From the NCBI GenBank assembly GCA_017979445.1, contig CM030713.1:24783163-24847162 (forward strand): a stretch of DNA of 64,000 nucleotides, in the 5' to 3' direction. Under the pieces are notes generated by a model, which was not told where the DNA came from, searched no databases, and worked only from the letters and a program-made list of their open reading frames with translations. This document shows, piece after piece, positions 823 through 61,549 of the stretch. The position numbers and the translations under genes are program-made. The stretch's first letter is position 1. Each line of letters begins with the position of its first letter. The DNA is from Akebia trifoliata (taxonomy: Eukaryota > Streptophyta > Magnoliopsida > Ranunculales > Lardizabalaceae).

Positions 823-3800
823 AATCAATAATTAAGTCCAATCGGTAGTTATTTTACTATTTTATCTATTTCCTGTTTTTTTTTCTAACAACACAAAATA
901 GCATATAAGATGAAAAATTGAGTAAAACATGACAGAAATCAATGGTGATAGCTTCACTATGATTTGATAAATTCCACCTTTCAATTTCCTTCCTGATGAT
1001 CTCAATATCAATTCTAAAGAGTTTTGAAGATCTATTCTTTAAGAACTACCCCACAAGAGCATACTTGAATCTATTTGATCCTTTTTTTATGTCTTCATCC
1101 TGGAAATGCATTGTTGATTCTCGATGCCCTTAGATGGAGATGTCTTTTATCGATTTGAAGAGGAGGTTCAGATTTTCCCCCGATGGCTTTCGTAAAATTT
1201 TTCCACCAAAATTAGCCATTCTCAAAACATTGCAGAAATTAGGAGAAATGAAAAACGAAAAGACAAATCGTGAATCAAAAGAGAAAATGGATGATGTTCT
1301 TCACCCCTAGTAGATTCTTTTCTTACCCAATTAAGGGAGGACTGAATAGTTCAAGAGACATGATTGACAGTAAACAATCATTTCAAGCGAACTCCAAAGA
1401 TATAGTTTTCTCTCTTTAGTGCAGAGCTTCTCTCTAACATTACTAAATCTGATGACAATGATGAAGATTGACTTGTTTACCTTTCGCACTTCCTCGAAGC
1501 ATTGAATCATTACCTAAAAGTGTCCCATAATTAGACAAATGTCTTAATTGATTCATAGTTATTCACTCTCCAACATTCTTATTCTTGAGCAATGTGAGAT
1601 TAAAAACTTTTACATAGAATTCTTAATTTTTTTCATCTTAAGAACATAAAAAATAAAAAATTCATGTAATATATTTTGAAAAATATTCAACATTATCTGA
1701 TTTGTTTGATCTGGTCATGTCATGATCAATGTAAGTCCACACATAACAAAAAAAAATTATAATACTGATCATCCACTTTTAGTGGTGTATCTCCTATCTC
1801 TTAACCTTTCCATGGTGAAATTTTGTGAGAATCTAAAAATATTAGTGATGTCCCTTGTTTCATTTATGCACTTAAGAGCCATCAATTGAGTTATGACTAG
1901 GAGAAGATACTCACTTTTTTGAGCTTTCTAAAGATATCAAGTTAAATATTCGATGATTTAGAAAGGTTGATTATTTTATTAAAGGGTTCCAAATTATGTA
2001 TTGCATGTATTCATGCAATGAAAGTTGTTAAAAACACAACAAAAAATTAGTTGATGCTCCATCATCGTAGAGAAGGATTGATTTTCGACAATTCTAAGCA
2101 TAAATCGAAGTGTGTGGAAAAACAAATTTATCCCCACATAAGGAATTGAGAATGTCCACATAAAAACCAAGATGTGGTTTCATCTCTCATCCTATGGATG
2201 TAAACCCATTTAACATGGTGAAGAGAGGGAGAAAGGTGCGGTTTTTTTGCTCATAGCAAAGTCAGTATGAGATTTCACATGAAGCCTATCAAGTTTAACT
2301 TTGTAAATTCAGGATGTCCTCAATGCATGTGGATTTGCGTGATTGGTCGATCTAAGATTATGTGAAATCTCAAATTGACTTTTCTATGAGTGCAATTTTT
2401 TTTTTTTTAAAACAAAGATTAAATAGGAGCCTTTTACATAAGAAAAATACTAATGTGACTTTCTACATCGACATTGTGCACAAGATTGAGCTGATGTGGT
2501 AATGTGCATATAATCATATAATTTTTTCCTTGTATCTTGAGAAAAAAGATCTATGTTGCATCCGTAGAGTATTAAGCATAGTGTTGTACACAGTCACTTT
2601 AGAATGTCTTTTAACATAAACAAGGGTATTAGGTGTCTTTATCCTTTATTGGTGTGTCGAAAGAATTAGTGTTTAAGAAAAGTTGATGGGATGCTCAATT
2701 CGTAATTCGTACCATAATGAACTTTGATATCAGCACAACTTGACTCTACCTTGGGTTGAGATTATCTACATTGACCAAGTCATTTCTCTCTACTAGTTCA
2801 AACCATATCCGAATCTTTTTTTTTTTGCATTTATTAAACTCATATCCGGATCTTATTCAATTGAATTAATTAATTCGGGTTGGATAATTTCAAATCATTT
2901 GAAAGAAAATTTTTAAAGATTTGGCCAAAGACGATTTAAACTTAAGACCACTCACTTTTTTAAGAGAGGCCTTGACCATTATGCCCAACACTTAATGGTT
3001 GATGAAAAATAATTTGAAAAATATAAAAATATAATATATAAAGTAGTATATCATTCAGATATAGATGGAAATAAGGATATATCCAACTCGGGTCAAGAGA
3101 CATCAACCTATATCCTACCCATATTTTAATTTGGATATACTTGAAGGATTGAAATTTGCTAAAATTATATTTGGATCACTCAAATTTCAGATAGAATCTG
3201 ACCCATTGTAAGCCCCTCTCTCTCTCTCTCACAACCTTTGATTGAGATTGCCATTTATATTCAAAAGACCTTGGAAGTTAATTGTAACTTCCCCAAATCG
3301 TTAGGAACATTGTCCCAGCAGAAATGCTTGGCTATGGTTTTACTTTATTTATTTATTTTTGACTCTTTAGATTAATCGCTTATCTCATACAAGTTTGAGG
3401 CTTTTTCATCAAATGAACAGATGAGATGGGAAGATACTCCGACCCCAAGAAACTTTTATTGATCTCTAAGAAACCTGTGCTTTCTCTGAAAATAAACGGC
3501 TGAGATGGAATGACATTCCTTGGAAAACTTGTACTAACTCTAGGAAACATGTACTGTACTCCAAGAAATTAAATCTTTAGTCTTTCTCATGTATAAACCA
3601 TATGTTTGATGGAGAGCTGCAGACATATTCTGAGGTTAGAAAAGTCCTTTCTGGTGCTACTGTCGTAGGAATCAGGTGAAGTTTCTAGGAACTGCTTTGT
3701 GGGGAATTCATAAGAGTATCTTCCCATCTCAGCCGTTGGTTTGACGGAGCTAGATAGTCTTTGCCTGTCCCCACATGTCACTGTCTCATTAGGTTGTTGG

Positions 3801-3864
3801 ATCTTCAAGAAGCCAAATGAATGAGACATGTGGACTTGACTCAACCACCTATTTATTTATTTTA
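823..3864. other. Unassigned AT-rich interval
   Basis: No gene or transposon domain is recognised. It holds a short imperfect inverted repeat (2249-2280 with 2361-2393), a CT run near 3213-3230, and a second imperfect inverted repeat around 'gatgggaagatactc' (3407-3445 with 3699-3745). A short minus-strand open stretch near 1100-1230 has no recognisable motif. This is probably eroded transposon sequence. Confidence 0.5.
2249..2393. repeat. Short inverted repeat
   Basis: The arm 'gctcatagcaaagtcagtatg' plus 'agatttcac' is answered on the opposite strand by 2361-2393, with about four mismatches. About 80 bp separate the arms. It could be a small MITE or fold-back relic. No target duplication is evident. 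Confidence 0.4.
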
Positions 3865-4683
3865 TCATATTTTTTATTTTTGTTGTTTATCTTTGACAAC
3901 ATGTTTCACATCATGATCATATTCATCTTTGCGATCATGACAGTACATAAATTATGTATTTTGGAAATCTACTTTTTAAAACATGGATTGATTGACTACG
4001 ATGTAAAGACTTGGAAAATTAGCTTGAATTTGTGGCTCATATTGCACGTAGAAAAATGCTGCAGTAACGTTGGAAGTGACATCGTTTTATACATTGCCGA
4101 CGTGGATGTGTGTAAACATCCATGGATGTTTTTGATCGAGATACGATTGAGAAAAATCTATGATTCTGTGCACACCAATGTGTGAAACGATGTCAGTTTC
4201 ATTGTTACTACAGGGCGACACCACATTCCAACATTTATGGTATCTACGTGTCACACAAGGAAATATCCATATGTCCCTCCAACTAGTTTCCAATCCATCA
4301 TTTGCAGCCACACAACTTGTTGGTTGAGTTGGGGTTCCACCAACACACAAAAGGGCACAATATTTCATCTCTCGGTAATGCTTTGTGAAGCTTTGAAATA
4401 AATGGAATTGATAGTCTGCAATTCACTTCTCAACTCACTTGAAAATGCCAACATGCAAGCCCAATTCATTGATGGAAATAATATAATTGCTTGTATTTAT
4501 TTACATTGCTTAGAAGTGGGGTAAGGAAGATAGAAGGATGTGAAGCAAAAGCAACCACGTGCCTCTCTTGATGATGGTTTCAAAACAAAGGAAAGTTGTG
4601 ATAGATTCAAACTGAGGGTTGAGTCATGATGTATTATATATGGTTAGTTTCCTTCATCTTCAAATTAGGGTCACATGAAGGTC

Positions 4684-4728
<45 letters not shown>

Positions 4729-5285
4729 AGTAGAAGTTTTGATTAAGGGCACTTCTCTATAGATTTTTGAATCCTAAACAGCCCTAGATGTATCCATCAT
4801 GAAATAAACTTGATTAGCCTTATTGACTCTTCAGTACCAAAGGAAAAAAGGGTTTGGTTGGTTTCTCATAATTGTCCAAAACAAATTAAATACAGTGGAA
4901 GTGACCTTATTATCTTTGTACTCTTTAGATAATTTCATATAAGAAGGGGTCACTCGTACAAAACTTGTAAAATATTAGAAGCTCATGAAACAAATGAATG
5001 GCCAAGAAGAAACTAATACTAGGCTATTTTTCTTCTATTCTCTTGTTCGATATGCATTCGCTCTTGCTAAGTTTTATTAGCTATCTTTATTCTCAAAGAC
5101 CCATTTAATAGACAATTAAATTTAACTTTTCCTCAAACATATCAAGAAGCATGTTGCTTCAACAATTCAAAGACTTGGACCAGAGATGACTCTGCATGTA
5201 AAGAGAAAATTTTCTAGATTTTATGCTATATATTTGTTTGTAATAAGAAGAAAGGTGATGTATTTTTTCTTATTTTTTATTTTTG
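3865..5285. repeat. 1.4 kb tandem duplication, unit 1
   Basis: From about 3865 ('tattttttatttttgttg') to 5285 the sequence is repeated almost exactly in 5286-6718. Matching landmarks are 'atgtttcacatcatgatc' at 3901 and 5301, and a (GA)n tract at 4686-4724 and 6091-6135. The offset grows from 1400 to about 1434 bp through microsatellite and small indel differences. Both units contain the same short open frames, with stops and indels that argue against coding. No transposase or retroelement motif is visible. Confidence 0.85.
4686..4725. repeat. (GA)n microsatellite
   Basis: About 20 uninterrupted GA units, inside unit 1 of the tandem duplication. Confidence 0.95.
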
Positions 5286-27433: not shown

Positions 27434-28846
27434 TCATCCAGTACAAATAATACACAAGGTGGATTTGGATTGAGGAATATGTCGGGAGTGTGATGCAGGG
27501 GAAGGTAGGGGCATGTCGGTGGGAGGAAGACTTGGTTCTAGAAAATTTGAGATTTGGAGAGAGGATATGGATTGGGCTTGGCAAGTATGTTGAAAGGGAA
27601 AATAGTTTTCGTCAAATTGGGCATGGCGGGTAATATAGAGTCTGGAAGTGGTGGGGTCAAGACAACGAAAACCTTTATAAGATAAATGATAATCCATAAA
27701 AATGCAAGGGATGCTACGAGGAGAAAACTTGTTAGTCATGTAATCATGTAAACAAGGATAAACACGACAACCAAATGAATGAAAGTTTTCATAATTAGGA
27801 AAGGAACCATATAGAAGTTGAAAAGATGACTTACCTCCGAGAAGCGGTATGGGCAAACGGTTAATGATGCAGGCCGCAGTGGAAGTGTGTGGGAATGTGA
27901 GAATGAAAAAGGAGGGCTAGAACTGTTTTAGGTACATGACAGTGTTTCCTTTCTGCATGACCATTTGGTGCAGGTGTATGAGGACAAGAGAGTTGATGAT
28001 GAATGCCAGACGAATGAAGGTGTGTTTTAAAGCAGTTGCTAGTGAATTTTGTACCACTGTCACTTTGAAATTTTTTTATACGTGCGGAATATTGATTTTC
28101 AACAAAATTTTGAAATTGAATAAAGGTGTTAAAGAAGCTAGATTTCAATTTCAATAGATAAAGCCAAGTGAAACGAGAATAATCGACAATAAATAAAACA
28201 TAGTATGTGAAACCCGAATTTGACTTTACAGGAGATGAGCCCCATAGATCGCAATGAATAAGATCTTTAACACTTTTGAAGATTGATGTTCAGTACAAGA
28301 ATAGGGCAAATGGTGATTCTTTGCAATTTGACCTGTATTACATAACGTAGGAGATGGCAATAAAGAAGTAAGATAAAGCTGTCATTTTTTATTCAGAAAA
28401 GAAATAACAGAATGATTTACATGTCCAAGGCGAGCATGCCATAAATCATATGAAGCATGAAGAGACTTATTTTTCAGGACAGAAATAAAAGTCGAATTTT
28501 CGCGTTCTAACACATATAGGCCACCATCTCGTTTACCAGTTGCCACCACTCTTCTTGTTTGGTGATTCTGAATAGTAAAAAGATTATTAGTAAACATAAC
28601 GGATAATGGAAAATCAGTCGTTAATTTACTAATGGACAAAATATTTTTGATGATTTTAGGGACAACCAAAACGTCTAATAGTTGAAAATCAGGGGAATGG
28701 GAAAGTTTACCAGTGTGGGTAATGGGTATAGACGCACCATTCCCAGCAATAACACAATCCTTACCTGTATAAGAAGTGGACTGGTCCAAGAAGGATTGGG
28801 CTGGAGTCATATGGGCTGAGGCCCCTATATCTAAAAACCAATACAA
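27434..28846 (-). pseudogene. Copia pol: protease, GAG-pre-integrase and integrase
   Basis: 28382-28846 starts with the aspartic protease motif FLDIGASAHMT, where families normally have D-T/S-G, so the active-site triad is altered (T to I). It ends with the pre-integrase block DLWHARLGHVNHS. The integrase core is at 27861-28154 (FQSDSGTKFTSNCF, with SGIHHQ and NGHAERKH), and its C-terminal part, including 'FGCRVYPCLHDYMTNKFSPRS', at 27434-27856. A stop and frame changes lie between these pieces. Normal role: cleave Gag-Pol and join cDNA to the chromosome. Confidence 0.9.
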
Positions 28847-28849
28847 GGC

Positions 28850-29727
28850 CTCATTTCCTGAAATGGAACACGATGCATTAAGGGCTTCGACGAGTTGAGC
28901 CTTAGGGACATGACCATGGCGTTCATACCATTGTCGGCATCGGTCAGCATAATGACCCTCAATGTGGCATATTTGGCAGCGCGGGGGTCGTCTGCCAGAG
29001 GAGTGTCCCTGTCCTCGTCCATTGCCGCTAGTTTGAGTCGGTTGATTGCGAGGTTGCGATTGGTGATTATGAATGCTACAGGAGAAGGTGCAGCCAACTC
29101 CAATGATTTTTGAAAGAGCTCAAAGCTCTCTGCTTTTGGCACAAGATCTGTGAAACAAGGCAAAGGAGTGAGGGCCATTTGGGCCATGGAGAAGCTCGAG
29201 AATTTCGAGCCCAGACCTTCGAGGAACCAGTGCACTTTATCAGTGCCATTGACGGGTCGTCTGATTGCATGGAGTTGATCGCAGAGGGCCTTGAAGGAGC
29301 GTGCATACTCCGAAACAGATCTGCTGCCTCTTTTCATCAGTTACAAGTAATCCATGAGACGGATTTCAGAGGCTTTGGAGCGGTGGCTGAAGGTGTTTTC
29401 CAAGGCAACCCACACCTCACGTGAAGTGGAGAGTCCCACAACTTCAGCCATGGCCTTCTCAATTAGGGAGGACAATAGAAGGCTAAGGAGGCATTGATCA
29501 GTATGTTTCCATGCCACATGTTTGATGTTTGGTGTCTGAGAATTTTCAGGGGTGAAACGAGGTGGGATTTCTATAGTTGCACCCACATAGCTAATTAGTT
29601 CTTGACTTTCTAATAGGGGAAGCAATTAGCTTTTCCATAGGAGATAGTTGGAAGAGGATAGTTAGATTGAAACAATGTGGATGAGGGTATTGAAAGGGAG
29701 AAGAGTGGAGGAGGGTTCAGTAGCCAT
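28850..29727 (-). pseudogene. Copia gag
   Basis: ATG at 29727 opens with MATEPSSTLLPF, but the frame shifts soon after. The UBN2-type capsid region is visible at 29341-29625 (ISYVGATIEIPPRF...WVALENTF) and 28990-29337 (SVSEYARSFKALCDQLHAI). A zinc knuckle CQICHIEGHYADRC (CX2CX4HX4C) is present near 28938-28980 in a frame different from the capsid. Gag would form the particle and bind RNA. At least two frameshifts make this copy non-coding. Confidence 0.85.
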
Positions 29728-39810: not shown

Positions 39811-42009
39811 ATGACTAAGGACACTCCTCCCAAAGATTCAAAGAACAAGAATCATTCCAAAATGAGCTTACCATGCGAAATATGGATAGATGACCCTGCA
39901 GATTCTCCTGAAAAGGAAAAATAACAATATTTTCCCCATGTTATGATAATTGGTCATTCAACATGAGGAAATAGCCCATTTGTAGAGTTGAAGCTTGGTG
40001 TGCATACAACGACGATCGATCCTTTAAGGGCACAAGATACAGAAAAGGACACATTGTTCCATATGATAGCTTTACGTGAATATCCTTCAACAGCTAATAT
40101 ACTTTCAAGAGATGAGATTGATATAGAGTGTCAACCATATTTATATCATCCTCTTCATCATGATCAAGCTCAAAATTGTCCACAACCTATTTTGACACAA
40201 AAAATTATGCAATGTTTCACTCAATGGGACTCGAATATTGAACCTCGAGGCGATACTTGATATCTTAGTAGTTTTTGGGATTTGAGCTTAGATGTTAGCC
40301 ATAAGTTGTAGAGCATAGAGGCGATATATTCTCTAGGTGAGGCCACATTTGTAGCAAGTAAGGAATACATTCATCTTAATGGTATGTATCGGGCTTGGTG
40401 TCTTGAGACCAACACTTTTGTGATTGGTCATGAGGAAGTTGACATTTCTTTATGGGAAATACAGAAGATTTCTAGACTTTCTTTCATGTATGAGTATTAT
40501 GAAGAAGTGGTTCCCAATTTTGACAAACTCATGGGTTGCAATGATATTTCAGGACTTCCCATTTCTTACTAGTACTTGTTTAAGGCATACATTTTATTGG
40601 CTTTTTGATAAGGGAATGACTGCATTAGGAATAGTGAGTGACTTGATTTTTGATATACTAGAACTGAATAGATTTTTAATCCTCATCTGGCGATGGAGTA
40701 CAAAGAAAGGTTTTTACTTTGATCATGATGGCAATCAATGTCCTAGAACAAAATTACAAAGTCTCTTCTTTTCTTGAGTCACTTTAACTATAAGAAGTCG
40801 TAAAAAGGGAGAGAATCCATTTATTAAAATTAATTTTCCTATGAATAAAAGTATCGAAGATGAAGTTATGAAGACTGCATATCTCTCCTTATAGTTATGT
40901 TGTTTTGTTTTTCTTTACGAAGGAAGTGATGTTCTTCGCCTAGGCACCTTTAAGGTAGCCGTATTGGTGGCCCGAGGTATTACATTTAGCTTGGTACTTC
41001 AACTTCTGTATTATTTGTATAAAGGTCTAACTCAGACCTATTAGGATATGAAAACACAAATAGTTGTAGGTTTCCTCGACTTATTGGCCCCTTCACTATT
41101 TATTTGGGTTGATTGTATTTCATTTTCCTTAGAAAATATTTGATGACCTTGATGCTAATTATAGACCTCCATATTTAGTTCACACGGCTGGTGTTTCCAA
41201 CTCGTATTTCAGTTGGAAATATATTGCTAAGGATGCAAGGGATTTAATCCTAAACATGGGTTCTAGTGATTTTAAATGATATCCTGAGGAGGTTTGGCTG
41301 CCAAAAAGTGATAGAAGGATATGAACTGATAATAGTGATAAGCCTTATGAGATTCAAGCTTTCATGATAAGTTGTCTTCTTGGATTTGTTGTATTTAATA
41401 ATGGTAATATTTGTGAGGTGGAAATGTACAGTCTTCATAGATTTGCTCGTCAACAAAGTTTTCATCAACGTATTCCTAAAACTCCGAATACTTTTGCAAG
41501 ATCCATGGACATGCTAGAATTACACAATTTATGACTATCTTTAACCCATATAAAGAGTTGATTCAAATTTTTTATTCCTTTGAAAATGAAAAACATCATT
41601 CGACAATTTGATAAGAGTTATAGAGATTGGTAGACTCAAGACGTAGTGACTCACTTAAATGCGCTTGATTCCCGTCTTCTTGAAGATAATGTTTCTATTT
41701 TGAACTTCAATTTTGATGGAAGAAAAGGGATTGATGTTCGTGATGTGTGTCATGGGTTGCTTGCAACACCAAAGCCTTCTCGAAAAAGAAGAATGGAGCA
41801 GACGCATATTAAAGAAATTCAAAAGTTTGTTACGGAGCCTAGATTGAAATTATATTTCAAAAGAACGTTGCTAAGTTCAACAACTATTCAAATAAAGCAG
41901 TACAATATTCTTGGGGTGGATATTATAGAATAGACAGCTCATAGATCAAGCCCTGCATGTCCATTGAAGCTTATTGTTTTTAGGCTGAGCCGAAAACTAC
42001 AAGAACAAT
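39811..42009 (+). pseudogene. Plant mobile domain (PMD) protein, 5' part
   Basis: The frame starts MTKDTPPKDSKNKNHSK at 39811 and is then broken. Further blocks are 'LGVHTTTIDPLRAQDTEKDT' (39991-40050), 'YRAWCLETNTFVIGHEEVDI' then SLWEIQKISRLSF (40387-40490), 'YILLAF' (40585), and the later 'FSWKYIAKDARDLILNMGSS', 'KPYEIQAFMISCLLGFVVF' and 'EMYSLHRFARQQSFHQRIP' (41205-41490). These are the aminotransferase-like plant mobile domain found in plant transposons and their domesticated relatives. Several stops and frameshifts are present. The sequence is interrupted at 42009 by the CACTA element and resumes at 46956. Confidence 0.75.
42007..42009. repeat. CACTA target-site duplication, left (AAT)
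   Basis: AAT here and at 46953-46955. Confidence 0.85.
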
Positions 42010-42034
42010 CACTACCTCAAAAATGTTAAAATTC
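42010..42034. repeat. CACTA terminal inverted repeat, left
   Basis: Pairs with 46928-46952, 20 of 25 positions identical; mismatches at positions 7, 9, 14, 16 and 18. Confidence 0.88.
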
Positions 42035-42363
42035 GTTATTATTGTAGTGTTAAATTCGGCGGCCCAAGACCACCGTTTATTTTTTACTGGCCCAAAACTC
42101 AATTTTAAGCCCAAGAATAAATTTCGACAGCCTTGGCCCAACGAACCACCGATTTTTTTTCTTTTAACAAAAGAAAAAAAAAACCTTTTAACGTCTTAAC
42201 ATTCTTCCTTCTCATTTCAGAGGAAAATCAGATCGAAGAAAATTGCAGACGAATCAGATCTGTCACACTCACCACGTCCCTCAATCTCCCATTTCGGATC
42301 GATCGAGAGCACTGAACGAGATATATCTCTCTCTGTAACTAAGAAAGCTTTTCTACTATTTTA

Positions 42364-43460
42364 ATGGTGGCTTCTCTTTTGCTCTGGAATTCATCCATGG
42401 AGAACAAAGTGGAGGAATCAAAGCGGATAACTGAGAAAAAAGGTTTGGAAGAGAGGATTACGAAAGTAGAGACTACGAAGTCGAGAGGGAGAAAGAGCAG
42501 TAAAACCTCACAGAAGAAACTTCCCCAGAGAGGATTAGGTGTTGCTCAGCTGGAGCGATTAAGGTTACAAGAAAGGTTGAAGAAGATGCCAGAGGTCGAT
42601 CAAGTTCAAACAGTTCAGAATCTCTATCCTCGGTTCCAGTTCTTCCCATTTTTAGATCCGAAGAATGAAGTTTTAGATTCATTCGCAAGGTTCGCTCCTG
42701 TGAACTATGGTCAGCCAAGCTCGCATTCGTAGTTTTTTGGATTTCAGCCGTATAATGGATTTGCAGGTGGGGTTACCGGTTGCTCCGGTGGAAATTCGTT
42801 GTTTCCAGGTCAGTTTCAGGTGGATCGATTATGGATCACGTCTCAAGAGCTCTCTTCAACCCAAAATATCCATTGTTTGTCCGATCGTTGCGATATCTGT
42901 CTTAAGGTAAGAATTAGGGTTTCGGAACAAAACATTGTCTTTCTTCCTTTCAATCTTTCTGTTATTAATTTTTTTTGTGTTGTTTTCATGTATAGAAGAA
43001 GCATATCAATGGCTAGAATTCAGGTTTTAATGGAGGGAGAACCCAATATACGGAGAAGATGATGCCCATTGACTGTGATTTTCTCGGATTGAATCTTGGA
43101 CGAAACAGCAACGTTGATGGATTTAAAGGTGTTAGGCATGCTTGTCATTCTAGATTGACTGTTGATGAGGTAAATTTTCAATCTCTCTCTCTCTCTCTCT
43201 AAATTTCTGAGATTGTTAATGGAAATTAATGGCAGGAAGTGGAGGTAGTAGCAGTTCATAGAAAGGGAAAGTCTGTGGGTGGCAGTAGTGTGTTAATGGA
43301 GTACGAATTCTTCCCTCACAAAGGTAGCAGTAGCAGCTCTTTTAACAATGAATCCTCCATTACAGAAGCAGGAGGAGCAGCATATGCTGCAATCATGGGT
43401 GGAACTTCTTCATCATCTAATACTAATTTGATTGATTTGTCTCTCAAGCTTTCTTGTTAG
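42364..43460 (+). pseudogene. SPEAR/TIE-type EAR repressor gene, captured copy with two nonsense changes
   Basis: Exons 42364-42906, 42996-43169 and 43236-43460 keep GT-AG introns of 89 and 66 bp, all phase 0, 314 codons in total. The SPEAR motif RGLGVAQLERLRLQE is near residue 55, conserved 'SLFPGQFQVDRLW' and 'LSDRCDICLK' follow, then 'DCDFLGLNLGRN', 'EVEVVAVHRKGKS', 'VLMEYEFFPHK' and the C-terminal EAR motif IDLSLKLSC. Intact relatives recruit TOPLESS co-repressors and modulate TCP or sporocyte programmes in the nucleus. Two in-frame TAG codons (42730-42732 and 43014-43016) stand where relatives have glutamine. Otherwise the frame is open. A start at 42397 is also possible. About 300 bp upstream probably contain its 5' UTR and promoter. 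Confidence 0.9.
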
Positions 43461-44242
43461 AAACTTAAGAGAGGTAGAAATTAAAGAAACTTACCTATAT
43501 GCTTTCAGTTTTTTTTTGTTCTTGCTTGAGTTAATCCAACTGAACCAAATCCAAAACACACTTTTGGTCTGCTGCATGGGTACTCTGTTCCAATAATGTG
43601 GATATCCCTGTAGTACTCTATTATTGTTCTCTGCTGCATGGGTACTCTGTTCCAACAACTTGCATTTGAGTAACTAAGTTGGATCTTTCAACTTTGACTG
43701 CAATTTACTCTTAATTGGTCTAGTAAGGTCATTTATTGATTGGCATATGGTTTAAAGTTTTGGTTTGTGTTGGAATGTATTGTATTATTTCCATAGCTTA
43801 GTATTGGTTTAAGTCTCAAATTAGAATAAAAATTTAAGTACCCATTTGAGAATTGAAACCAATGGTTATCCTTAATTTTTAACGGTATTAGAAGTCCAAC
43901 ATCATTAGTTCATAGAAGTCTACTGATTTGATAAACTACCGATGAGATCATTGAGATAAAATTTTAAGGGTGTCTCGTCCCTGAATCTCCGTAAAATTTC
44001 TCTACTATTTACTTACAAAAATTTATTGACATTGTACTTGAGCTGTATTGTTTGTATGACGAGAGATTTATGGCTTATTGCGGACTGCTAATATTGTTGT
44101 ATCATTGACATTGTAAGCTAAATGTTATCGAAGTCATGTTCATGAGGACTGCTAATATTTTTGGCTTATTGCGTTTTGTTATTGTATTTTACTCCTATTT
44201 TTAGTACTTATGTTATTAAATCTGTAAATGTTGCTTTGGCAG
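43461..44242. other. Inter-fragment sequence of the Pack-CACTA
   Basis: Probably the 3' UTR/flank of the SPEAR gene, then TM9SF intron. 'ctgctgcatgggtactctgt' occurs at 43570 and 43632 as a short direct repeat. No other gene seen. Confidence 0.5.
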
Positions 44243-44567
44243 ATTCATTGATTCTCTATTTTCAATTCTTTCATGATGGTTATCTTCCTCACTGGCTTGG
44301 TATCAATGATATTGATGCAAACACTTAGAAATGACTATGCAAAATATGCTCGAAAACATGATGATCTGGAGACATTGGTGACACTCCGCTTTTGTTTCAA
44401 TTTTTTTTTTATTTTTTATTTAAATTATTTGTTGTTCATTTTGTCGGAAACTCGTAATAAATGGGTGATTATTTTCAACACATTGTCAGGAAAGAGATGT
44501 AAGTGAAAAGTCTGGTTGGAAACTTGTACATGGGGATGTTTTTCGTCGTCCTTGCAATTTGGTTGGC
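44243..44567 (+). pseudogene. TM9SF (nonaspanin) fragment, two exons
   Basis: Exon 44243-44377 (after acceptor TTGGCAG) reads [20 protein letters not shown] then [19 protein letters not shown], with donor GTGACA. Exon 44490-44567 (after TTGTCAG) reads [20 protein letters not shown] then PCNLVG and a stop. These are adjoining exons just after the first transmembrane segment in plant transmembrane-9 superfamily proteins of the endosome/Golgi. A TGA replaces a conserved Trp early in the first exon. Only about 70 of more than 600 residues are present. Confidence 0.88.
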
Positions 44568-44735
44568 TAGGTCTCCACAGAAGAGAGATGTCCTTTTTTA
44601 TTTTCTTTTAGAAGTGTCATTGCCTATATAAATATTAATTTCTATGCTTTAATAGTTTGAATTCATGGGGGAAAAAATTCCCAAAACAAGAGAACATTCA
44701 TTTTAGAGAAATTCACAATTGAAGCACATTTTAAG

Positions 44736-44804
44736 GTTTGTGCCATCACTGTCAGTGTGGTTGGGGACATATGCAGGGCATTGGAGGAGGTGTTGCCTTA
44801 CTGT
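44736..44804 (+). pseudogene. Importin subunit beta-1 fragment
   Basis: Reads VCAITVSVVGDICRALEEVL then PYC, matching the HEAT-repeat segment 'VCAvTVGVVGDvCRALEDKiLPYCD' of plant importin beta-1, with one residue deleted after EE. Only 23 codons are recognisable. The reading continues open to 44942 in the same frame with Pro/Thr-rich sequence that I cannot assign; it may be another captured piece. Confidence 0.7.
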
Positions 44805-45262
44805 GGTTGGTTCCCACTCATTTCATTCTTTCCTCCAACACTTCGAGCACTGAGCACTGCCACCAAACACACACCACCAACTCCCCCAACACTCTCCTTT
44901 GACCTACTCCAACAGCACTTATCTTCCAAAGATTTTTCCTAAAGTTGATGAAGAAAATCATTTTTCCTAGGAAAGATGATTCTTTGTAATTTCTTGTGTT
45001 ATTTGAACATTAGGTAATAATAATTTGTTCTTTTGTTTGGCTAAGTGTGGCTGTTAATTAGCCGATAAGTGATAACAGAGAATAGCAACAGTAACTAGAC
45101 TGAAATTTATATAAACTAGTAAATTAGCATCCCTCTTGTTGTTTCTTGTGTGTAAAGATTATTAGTTGAGCTAGTGTATTTACTCAGCTTACCCACTAAA
45201 AAAAAAGGTTAATTAGCATTTTTATTTTCCTAATGGGTCATTTTTATTCTTGTTTCCAATAG

Positions 45263-46041
45263 CCATAGATATTTACTTTGAGTTTGCTTGGGCTTACTCC
45301 ACTTGTTGAAAGAGTATGCTTTCTCACTGAGTAAGTCTTCATTTATGTTTTTATTTTTTGCTAATCAAGCAAAGAATTGTATGTTTAAATATAAATTTTG
45401 ATTTTTTTTAATGGATTTTTGTTTAATTTTCTGTTACTTTTGCAGACAACTTGCGTATTATACTGGTCCAACAGGTATTTTCTACCAACACACTCTCTCT
45501 CTCTCTCTCTCTTATTTTGGAAATTGAAATGGTGATTTATAATTCTTTGAATTTGCAGTTGGGGAGCTTCTTAATGCAACATGTGGTAATGCAACAGAGC
45601 TAATAATAGCATTATTTGCTCTATATGATAGAAAAGTTGATGTGGTGAAGTACTCTCTCTTGGGTTCCATCATATCAAACCTTCTTCTTGTTCTTGGGAC
45701 ATCTCTCTTTTGTGGAGGCCTAACCAACCTCAAAAAAGAACAAAAATATGATAGAGTAAGACCCATCACTAATCAATTCATCACAGTTAAACCCAATTCA
45801 TAGTTGTTTGTAATTTCATCACATGTCTTTATTGATTTAACAGAAGCAAGCCGACGTAAATTCACAACTCCTATTGCTCGGCTTGTTGTGCCACTTGCTG
45901 GCATTGATGTTCAGATACACAACTATTATAGCCAATGAGACTATCAGCTCCACTCTCCTGTTTTCGAGGGCAAGTAGCATCGTCTTGTTGATTGTGTACA
46001 TAGCTTATCTCTTCTTCCAATTGAAGACACATCGAATATAT
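45263..46041 (+). pseudogene. CAX-type vacuolar cation/proton exchanger fragment, four exons
   Basis: Exons 45263-45330, 45446-45474, 45559-45755 and 45844-46041 keep GT-AG introns and matching phases (GA|A, G|TT). They read [50 protein letters not shown] then the [20 protein letters not shown] segment, and KQADVNSQLLLLGLLCHLLA, 'FSRASSIVLLIVYIAYLFFQ' and LKTHR. GNATE is the c-1 repeat motif that lines the Ca2+/H+ pathway in CAX antiporters of the tonoplast. One stop (W to TAG at 45266-45268) is seen. The fragment covers about one third of the protein and ends abruptly where the WD40 piece begins. Confidence 0.92.
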
Positions 46042-46055
46042 TTCTCTCTTTGTAG

Positions 46056-46440
46056 GTGGTGGGGAATCTAAGAGGACACTTAGACTATTCCTTTGCATCG
46101 GCATGGCACCCAGATGGGCAGATCCTTGCCAACGGAAATCAGGACATAAGGAATCTATCGCAATCCCTGGATGTACTTAATGGAAGAATGGGTGCAATAA
46201 GAGGCATTAAGTTCACTTCGGATGGCAGGTTTATGGCCATGGCCGAACTAGCAGACTTTGTTCACATCTATGATACACAGTCTGGGTATAGCCAAAGACA
46301 GGAGATTGATCTTTTTGGGGAGATTGCAGAGATATCATCTGCCCAGACACCGAGGCTCTTTTTGTTGGAGTGGCAAGTCGTACCTAAGGAAGCCTATTGG
46401 AATTTAACAAGCGTCATCGTAACCAATGTCTAGACTCCAT
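46056..46440 (+). pseudogene. WD40 protein fragment (fused downstream of CAX)
   Basis: After an intron-like TTCTCTCTTTGTAG the frame reads VVGNLRGHLDYSFASAWHPD, 'GRMGAIRGIKFTSDGRFMAM', 'ADFVHIYDTQSGYSQRQEID' and LFGEIAEIS. This is the last part of a plant WD-repeat protein related to yeast C2A9.03. Relatives have 'TTCRLW' after GNQD, which is deleted here. A frameshift after EIS and a TAA in the next frame (…VASRT*GSLLEFNKRHRNQ…) precede the family's normal end DSIF*. Host role unknown to me beyond WD40 scaffolding. Confidence 0.88.
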
Positions 46441-46952
46441 ATTCTGACTAAACGCTTCCTTTTTATATCAACCTTGTAATACTAATATAGGATATAAATA
46501 GATGTACATGTTCGCTAAGGTTGCAACCTGCCATATGTAGGATTGAGGCTTGAATGTGTTTTGTGGTTGGTTGAAATTAGAGGTGTTATTTTTTGGACTT
46601 CCAGATTGGGCGAGTCCTAGTTGGGGACCGAATATTTTTTTTTATAAAAAGAATATCCTATAGCGACGGTCGCCGACCGTAGTTAAAGGCTTAATATAAA
46701 TTTTTTTTAATAAAATACCCTATAGTGACGGCCAATAGTGGCTGTCGCTATAAGTACATAGTTGCGACGGGGTTTTAATCTATAGAGACGGTCAGCGACC
46801 GTCGCTATATCTCTAAATTCTATGATTTTTAACTGTCGAATATTTTTTCGACAAGGTAATATTCGATAGACCAATTCGACAGTCAAGACTGTCGAATGGT
46901 CCCATAATTCGACGGTTTTGGACCGTTGAATTTTGAAAATTTTCACGTAGTG
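46441..46952. repeat. Right subterminal zone of the Pack-CACTA
   Basis: After the WD40 piece there are several 'agcgacggtcgccgaccg'-like inverted motifs (46662-46680, 46783-46806), then 'attcgacagtcaagactgtc' and 'ttcgacggttttggaccgtt' palindromes, ending in the terminal repeat. Such motif clusters are where CACTA transposases bind. Confidence 0.7.
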
Positions 46953-46955
46953 AAT
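46953..46955. repeat. CACTA target-site duplication, right (AAT)
   Basis: Matches 42007-42009. Confidence 0.85.
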
Positions 46956-59423: not shown

Positions 59424-59756
59424 GTGGTACTCTGATCCTATCTCTATATTAAATGCCCACAAAAATAAAAAGAAGAATAAGAAGTTAAAAATGAGTGGGA
59501 ATCAAATGTTGTTATTTTTGTTATGTGTAGTAGCAGCAGCAGCCGAAGAAATCTCTGAAGCTAAGCCCAACTGCCCTGAAAAATGTGGGATGGTCAGCGT
59601 TCCCTACCCTTTTGGTTTTGGCGAAGATTCGAGTTGTTACAAAGATTTAACATTCAAGTTATTTTGTAACGATACTGAACTGTTCTTTTATAACATTCCG
59701 ATTCTCAACATATCGCTGCAAGACAACCTAGTCATCGGCAAAATCGATATGGCTTT

Positions 59757-61549
59757 TGATGAACGGAACGCCTCACGGATTCTTTAAGAGTACGAGAGGT
59801 CTCAGGCAAGGAGACCCTTTATCACCTTTCTTATTTATCATAGTGGCTGAAGCTTTTGGTAAGATGATGGAAAGAGGGGTAGCAAGCGGATCGTTTTCAG
59901 GGTTCTCAGCAGGGGCAGGCACGCTTACCATTTCACACCTCCAATTTGCTGATGATACATTAGTTTTCTTAGATGACTCCATTGATCAGACAAGGAGGCT
60001 AGGCGGATTGTTGTGTTGTTTCGAAGCGATGTCTGGCATTCCAGTTAACACAAGAAAAAGTAAGGTGTTTCCGATCGGCTTGGCTAGATGCACAATCCTT
60101 CTGGCAGCATCGTTGGGTTGGCAAGTGGGTAGTCTTCCTTCGTCCTACTTGGGGATGCCTCTGGGGGCCCCCTATAGGAGGGTGGCAATTTGGGACCCGA
60201 TAGTGGAAAGAATAGAAAGGAAACTAGCAGGGTGGCAAGCGAATTATCTTTCGAAGGGAGGTAAGCTGACTTTGATTAAAAGTGTTCTTTCCAGCATTCC
60301 AATATATTTTCTTTCTCTTCTCTCAATGCCTCGAAGTGTAGAACTAAGGTTAGACAAGTTGTTTCGCGACTTTCTATGGCATGACAGAGTTGGGAATAGA
60401 AAACACCATCTTGTGAGTTGGAAACAAATTTGTTCAAATAAGAAACATGGAGGCCTCGGCATTAGGAGACTTGGGGAGATGAACGTGGCCTTGAGGGGCA
60501 AGTGGTTGTGGAGATTTGGGAACGATGAAAATAGCTTATGGAGACAAGTTATAGAGAGTAAGTTTAAGTTGAACAAGACAGGGTGGGAAAGCGGATCAAC
60601 AAGACAACCATATGGATGCGGGTTGTGGAAGGGTATCATGAAGATCATCCCACTATTCAAAATGAGAATAAAATTCAGAGTGGGTCAAGGCAACCGAGTA
60701 AAATTTTGGGAAGACACATGGTGTGGCAATCGGCCTCTAATGGAGGTATTCCCAACTTTGTATTCCATATCCTCAAAGAAAGGGCAACCAATCACATCCG
60801 TCCGGCGATTTATGGGTGGAGAATGGGCATGGGACCTTGGTTTTCGTAGGGACATTGATGACACGGAAATCCAAGAAGTTGGTAGATTAGTTGGTGAGGC
60901 TTCAAGTATCGTGTTTCGTATGGGAAGAGAAGATGAGAGAATATGGACGGCAAGCAAGGACGGAAGATTTTCGGTACGCTCTTTCTACCAATCCTTGTGC
61001 AATAATGGGGATTCGCTTTTTCCTTATGTCTCTATTTGGGGTCCAAAGGTGCCAAGCAAAGTTGCTTTCTTCACGTGGACGGCGGCTCTAGGAAGGATAC
61101 AAACGACGGATTTGTTGATGCGGCGTGGTTGGTGCGGAACGAGTTGTTGTGTACTTTGTATGGAAAATGGAGAATCATCGGATCACCTCCTAATCCATTG
61201 CAAGTTCTCGCATGGCATTTGGGCTCATTTTTTTAAATTATATGGGGTCTTAACATGCTTACCGGAATCAGTTAAAGATATCTTCATTGGTTGGTCATCA
61301 ATTGGCTATTCGTTTGGCGGCACAAAGTGGTTGCTTTGGACTATTATACCGTTTGCAATTTGTTGGGGGGTGTGGTTGGAAAGGAATAGGCGTATATTCG
61401 AGGGGAAACATAATGAATGTCCAAGCATGATCATGTCTATCTTGGGTCTTATCTTTTGTTGGTCCAAAGTGTATAAGGAGTTTAGGGGTCTGTTTTTTGA
61501 GGATTTTTTGTACAAGTGGGATGGGGTTTGCGGTTCCATTCGTAATTAG
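59757..61549 (+). CDS. LINE ORF2 C-terminal part: RT palm to zf-RVT
   Basis: About 597 codons stay open. They contain GLRQGDPLSPFLFIIVAEAF, the catalytic QFADDTLVFLDD, 'SYLGMPLGAPYRRVAIWDPI' (thumb side), KGGKLTLIKSVLSSIPIY, 'HLVSWKQICSNKKHGGLGIR', and near the end the zinc-ribbon-like CCVLCMENGESSDHLLIHC followed by ...ICWGVWLERNRRIFEG. The endonuclease and N-terminal RT are lost by 5' truncation, so it cannot retrotranspose by itself and has no natural start (first Met at 59759). Intact relatives nick DNA and copy their RNA at the target site. Confidence 0.88.

Follow-up and report, generated by a model that had tools for sequence, protein, structure and literature searches.

The DNA considered here (the window) is a stretch of 64,000 nucleotides from the 652.5-Mb assembly of Akebia trifoliata (contig C10:24783163-24847162), and positions 42010-46952 within it are a complete non-autonomous CACTA transposon of 4943 bp, numbered below from window position 42010 as element position 1. 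Judged by matches to other loci of the same genome, the element contains pieces of six unrelated genes, namely SPEAR/NOZZLE, TM9SF, importin-beta (the weakest assignment), GUN4, CAX and WD40, along with a seventh, non-coding piece. The account that we regard as quite probable overall is that a Pack-CACTA element mobilised in trans acquired these pieces through template-switch gap filling, spread in a burst, became methylated, and had antisense cargo purged from it. This kind of element is already known from Tgm-Express1 of soybean; what stands out here is the evidence from the capture junctions and the sense orientation of the cargo across the whole family.

The element, its cargo and its copies

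The initial annotation of this DNA proposed a Pack-type CACTA element with 25-bp termini and AAT duplications but no transposase, and these features hold up. The ends are inverted and read CACTAC...GTAGTG, with CACTAC at each end and 20 of 25 positions matching, as is characteristic of CACTA (CMC/EnSpm) termini, and a perfect AAT target-site duplication (TSD) lies on both flanks. A six-frame Pfam scan of 42300-46540 gave no Transposase_21 match. The clusters of subterminal motifs that had also been described are present at the right end, as short direct and inverted repeats (I3, D16); none is listed as marking the left end. As in other Pack-TYPE elements, host coding DNA lies between the ends without transposase, and the proposal that it was captured from unrelated genomic sites is upheld by host-gene donor matches on dispersed contigs (Table 1).

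Table 1. Features of the CACTA element in the window, with donor matches
Feature	Window position (element position)	Strand	Remarks
Left TSD, AAT	42007-42009	.	
Left terminal inverted repeat, CACTACCTCAAA...	42010-42034	+	20/25 matches with right end
Left subterminal CACTA sequence	42010-42325 (1-316)	+	common to other family left ends; precedes SPEAR piece
SPEAR/NOZZLE gene, 38 bp before ATG to about 100 bp past stop, intron kept	42326-43566 (317-1557)	+	C11:46.06 Mb, 94.5%
CACTA transposase-gene leader remnant with internal deletions	43592-43932 (1583-1923)	+	
159-bp segment, unassigned, with local duplications of adjoining TM9SF sequence (repeats D4, D10)	43933-44091	+	
TM9SF (EMP70) exon/intron piece	44102-44564 (2093-2555)	+	C4:18.617 Mb, 91%
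Inverted 33-bp filler	44561-44593 (2552-2584)	-	reverse complement of CAX exon 45697-45729
Importin-beta piece, intron end and exon	44586-44823 (2577-2814)	+	C11:26.44 Mb, C15:15.08 Mb, 95-96%; weak Pfam match
GUN4 coding piece	44813-44935 (2804-2926)	+	C8:28.612 Mb, 90%
Non-coding piece	44930-45191 (2921-3182)	.	C3:32.632 Mb, 96%
CAX (Na_Ca_ex) exons and introns	45188-46035 (3179-4026)	+	C8:4.403 Mb, 92%
WD40 gene 3' exon and stretch past stop, splice-acceptor-like start	46032-46526 (4023-4517)	+	C2:12.005 Mb, 90%
Right subterminal CACTA sequence	46525-46952 (4516-4943)	+	at least 34 further places besides this element's copies
Right terminal inverted repeat	46928-46952	-	
Right TSD, AAT	46953-46955	.	

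In order along the element, the best donor matches of the six gene pieces lie on C11, C4, C11/C15, C8, C8 and C2, and that of the non-coding piece on C3. Because they are on different contigs, the alternative that the fragments were already contiguous at an ancestral locus is unsupported within this genome. The five plus-strand, intron-bearing pieces that had been noted are all present, in sense and with introns; the count, however, was too low, since the GUN4 piece and the non-coding C3 piece have to be added, and not everything is on the plus strand, given the antisense CAX filler of 33 bp.

The gene assignments come by different routes. In the scan of the element itself, NOZZLE/SPEAR and Na_Ca_ex (CAX) exceed the cut-offs set by Pfam, while a THOC3-type WD40 match (E=2.4e-4) and importin-beta (E=0.006) fall below them; all of these families are in sense, and the same six frames of 42300-46540 hold none in antisense. 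Pfam matches at the donor loci back SPEAR (NOZZLE), TM9SF (EMP70), GUN4 and WD40, and it is through these loci that the TM9SF and GUN4 pieces are identified. The GUN4 donor has its nearest relationship to basal eudicots. CAX is identified by the Na_Ca_ex match in the element, two further frames of its donor giving no Pfam match. The importin-beta match is weak at the donor place (E 0.008) as well as in the element. Many short partial copies of the importin-beta fragment occur in the genome (L014, L015 and 28 further matches), and it seems to have been spread by more than one carrier. Around the C3 piece, six frames of the surrounding 3 kb contain no Pfam family.

A DNA search of the host assembly with the whole element, in which the best 40 of 842 candidates were scored, found near-whole sequence at five places among the matches listed: the window, C14 (97%), C875 (94%), C4 (94%) and C16 (93%). 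The C4 copy (L021) has a left end shortened by seven bases, a copy on C6 is broken by extra internal DNA and an internal deletion, and a copy on C13 is partial. Both ends are present in the window, C14, C875 and C16 copies, each with its own perfect 3-bp TSD, although the C16 copy begins CATTAC and sits in an AT repeat, so that its TSD is less informative. The search of the host genome that had been recommended thus yielded three further two-ended copies of 93-97% identity. Across the family, a perfect 3-bp TSD flanks 9 of the 9 elements in which both ends were compared, the C4 copy not being among the nine. The element therefore moved as a unit after its assembly, and its occurrence in multiple copies, cargo included, is again that of a Pack-TYPE element. 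Pairwise distances among the five copies are 0.032-0.039, except for 0.014 between the window and C14, and such near-equidistance is expected of an amplification burst.

Do the copies encode anything? The initial annotation had supposed that the first donor apparently brought its own promoter, which is not supported: the SPEAR match extends no more than 38 bp upstream of the ATG, starting in a CT repeat, and ahead of it lie the 316 bp of the CACTA left end that other members also have. The SPEAR frame, the sole frame checked in all copies, contains premature stops in 5 of 6 of them and is thus not an intact, constrained reading frame. C-to-T or G-to-A substitutions make up 124 of the 267 singleton changes among the five copies, at rates per site of 3.1% in CG, 2.4% in CHG and 0.8% in CHH contexts. 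The CG/CHG excess is a mark of past CG/CHG methylation, and from these substitutions the copies have apparently been silenced.

Capture junctions and the order of capture

Eight junction alignments were made, and the seven in which donor matches meet on both sides were used for a count of microhomology, read by eye and strictly, with exact bases only. For the GUN4/C3 junction, the reading follows the C14, C4 and C16 copies, the window copy having later changed there. The exact microhomologies are 4 bp at TM9SF/filler, 3 bp at filler/importin, 11 bp at importin/GUN4, 6 bp at GUN4/C3, 1 bp at C3/CAX, 1 bp at CAX/WD40 and 0 bp at WD40/right end. They add up to 26, whereas breakpoints placed at random in the same donors give 5.2, and none of 100,000 random sets attained 26; with the longest (11-bp) junction removed, the observed sum was reached by 1 of 100,000. 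Most of the excess comes from the 11-, 6- and 4-bp junctions. The 33-bp filler between the TM9SF and importin-beta pieces differs from the CAX donor gene by two mismatches over the part compared. Repair with template switching leaves both fillers and microhomologies, and the excess of microhomology together with the inverted CAX filler fits such a process.

Distances to the donors, relative to those among the copies, offer a view of the order of events. The donor/copy ratios are 1.85 for TM9SF and 2.08 for CAX, with 0.66-1.37 for the other five pieces, and these higher ratios suggest that TM9SF and CAX were captured earlier than the rest. Two other loci touch on the same question. L012 (C11:42.654 Mb) carries a family left end with a TM9SF piece, and L018 (C16:22.237 Mb) carries a CAX piece with a family right end; these are possibly intermediates, possibly independent captures, and would be consistent with either stepwise or repeated capture.

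Orientation of the cargo across the family

The sense strand of the element can be read from its own leader remnant. Of the 10 loci that match the leader most closely, 9 have a Transposase_21 match on the same strand, about 1.1 kb downstream from the counterpart of positions 43780-43932 (element 1771-1923), with the best 150 of 590 candidates scored in the search for Transposase_21 loci; the sense strand is therefore the plus strand.

Uniform orientation of the pieces had been claimed for the window element; it is real there, and other family members show it as well. Searches with the left end (best 40 of 198 candidates scored) and the right end (best 40 of 526) list such ends elsewhere in the genome. 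Interior stretches of eight members (the window element, L027, L042, L030, L034, L033, L028 and L018) were examined in each frame of both strands separately, and those of eight more (L043, L044, L047, L050, L052, L036, L037 and L032) in two pooled sets, one per strand, the pooled sense output being given without Pfam cut-offs. At a threshold of E up to 1.2e-3, and leaving uncounted any family that overlaps others on WD40 or kinase stretches, the stretches of these 16 members contain 17 distinct Pfam families in sense (14 without the window element) and 0 in antisense. The first eight members contribute 13: NOZZLE, Na_Ca_ex, CHX17, aldo/keto reductase, kinesin, peptidase S8 and SUEL lectin, which are above the Pfam cut-off, and THOC3-type WD40, H_PPase, PCC, PTR2, ribosomal S25 and APG6. 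The second eight add 4 (Prp19 WD40, KAS III, protein kinase and CMAS) and show PTR2 and PCC again. No antisense family appears at E up to 1.2e-3 in the first eight members, nor at E up to 0.01 in the pooled second eight, and L028 has no family at threshold on either strand. Weak matches are found in antisense (Pox_D5 0.0077, Njmu-R1 0.023, SR-25 0.038) and in sense (including importin 0.006, RelA_SpoT 0.026 and ISK_Channel 0.035). By-eye sightings of VPS13 in L028 and of ATP-citrate lyase in L042 are unlisted by Pfam and hence were not counted.

If the captures are independent, the two-sided probability is about 1.5e-5 for a 17:0 division and 1.2e-4 for 14:0, which sets aside the three families of the window element, whose orientation prompted the question. 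These counts are to be read with the knowledge that the left end is seen in only some members, that the 4.4-kb stretches may in part extend beyond an element, that cargo is partly common between members, and that Pfam detects conserved domains only. Furthermore, the antisense CAX filler shows that very short pieces can break the sense rule. We place at about even chances the generalisation that capture or retention of gene pieces in this CACTA family is limited to its own transcription sense, whether by directional capture or through a strand-selective filter that would hide cargo in sense transcripts and avoid double-stranded RNA against host genes. The accessible text of the literature searched contained no tally of cargo by strand for CACTA elements.

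Two members deserve separate description. L027 (C2:12173789-12180563) is 6775 bp long, has the TSD TTA, and carries H+-PPase, aldo/keto reductase and CHX antiporter pieces, all in sense; it may have a twin at C1:11542139-11548906, where a left and a right end lie at a like distance. L042 (C15:14.59 Mb) is a member of 6744 bp with the TSD AAG and with kinesin and PCC (AHL-type) pieces in sense.

Proposed history and relation to known elements

The preferred explanation begins with a CACTA element that encoded transposase, the body of which would have been lost in breaks during excision or replication. The gaps would then have been filled by DNA synthesis that switched templates between host genes at short microhomologies, perhaps with CAX and TM9SF first and the remaining pieces around the time when the element amplified. 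The resulting non-autonomous Pack-CACTA, moving as a single unit by means of transposase provided in trans, would have spread in a burst as a finished composite and then been methylated, and it probably makes no useful protein. The sense orientation may have been kept because antisense pieces would pair with donor mRNAs as double-stranded RNA and so be purged, a selection step that we infer only.

Several observations weigh against this account. The search for an autonomous partner with the same ends was negative: at L040/L041, the transposase locus read at length, no ends match those of the element, and by eye none of the listed left and right ends (each the best 40, as above) pairs with any of the 150 scored Transposase_21 matches. 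At the junctions, WD40/right end has no exact microhomology (the sequence compared there being an 87%-identical relative instead of the source); at two others it is a single base. The left-end/SPEAR junction, which lies outside the seven, consists of five unassigned bases and a CT repeat; entered with a value of 0, it leaves a sum that none of 100,000 random sets reach, and that 10 reach once the longest junction is removed. The junction count covers the part from the TM9SF piece to the right end, so that the borders flanking the leader remnant and the 159-bp segment do not enter it, and the importin-beta piece has several possible sources (C11, C15 and the further partial matches). Finally, dating by alignment to the donors, which the initial annotation had advised, gives the order of TM9SF and CAX first when all changes are used but is blurred on transversions only, where TM9SF stands at 2.77 and both CAX and SPEAR at 1.80; the donor ages also rest on single distances.

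Other routes to such a composite have been proposed. In the Arabidopsis Pack-CACTA model, DNA lying between two adjacent CACTA copies turns into cargo once the copies have lost the ends that face each other, and tandem insertion of this kind is put forward for Pack-CACTA and other Pack-TYPE elements in the parts consulted of PMC8903248 and PMC13317346. It is difficult to see how that process would produce pieces of 0.1-1.2 kb that adjoin directly, are mostly cut inside genes, and match at least five contigs, or how it would insert an inverted filler of 33 bp, and we consider it improbable here. A living chimeric gene, in which a transcript starting at the left end would combine exons from every donor, like that of soybean wp, would account for the uniform orientation and for the borders that remain splice-site-like, and Tgm-Express1 provides a precedent with its spliced chimeric transcripts (PMC1947982, as far as its available text goes). 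The premature stops in the SPEAR frame and the methylation-type mutation spectrum argue otherwise, leaving the chimeric-gene reading of this DNA weak and, in our estimation, very improbable.

A further possibility concerns orientation: sense-only cargo could come from the capture mechanism itself, if repair used transcribed templates (nascent unspliced RNA, R-loops) of one polarity. All 17 distinct families in the stretches of the 16 members are in sense, as this would predict, and introns are kept, as in unspliced transcripts. However, introns are equally explained by plain DNA templates, and the antisense filler shows that antisense templates are usable, so that we take this route to be rather unlikely.

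Elsewhere in the window, two open frames were characterised by eye only. One of 605 amino acids (59732-61549, plus strand) reads like a non-LTR reverse transcriptase (LINE-type; LTR, long terminal repeat; LINE, long interspersed nuclear element) with a zinc-finger end, and one of 245 amino acids (28382-29119, minus strand) reads like a Copia-type gag-pol piece, with a CCHC knuckle and a protease-like DIGASAHM.

The closest known system is Tgm-Express1, the 5.7-kb CACTA element of the soybean wp allele, in which exon and intron pieces of five genes are spliced into chimeric transcripts (PMC1947982, in the portions seen). Both are non-autonomous CACTA elements of similar size with exon and intron pieces of unrelated host genes; a common orientation of the soybean pieces is inferred from the single spliced transcript described there. 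The Akebia element differs in host and genes; for it, there are several copies, mapped donor matches, microhomology at the junctions, and an orientation count taken across the family. It also resembles the Pack-CACTA elements of Arabidopsis and maize, which are non-autonomous elements with terminal inverted repeats (TIRs) and host coding DNA, and which in maize contain more distinct loci than any other Pack-TYPE group (PMC8903248, consulted in part). In contrast to the tandem-insertion model favoured in the sections seen of that paper, the small, microhomology-joined pieces in Akebia point to template switching. Animal Pack-TIRs, for which a gap-filling/FoSTeST model was proposed, share the breakpoint microhomology and the later amplification; the Akebia case differs in being from a plant and in offering seven readable junctions within one element, and plant Pack-MULEs were left open by those authors in the text available (PMC8277862).

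How cut-and-paste transposons gather pieces of plant genes is unsettled, and the seven readable junctions with located donor matches together bear the marks of template switching. A strand count of cargo is feasible in any plant genome, and if the one-way orientation holds in others, it would point to a directional capture step or to strong selection against antisense cargo.

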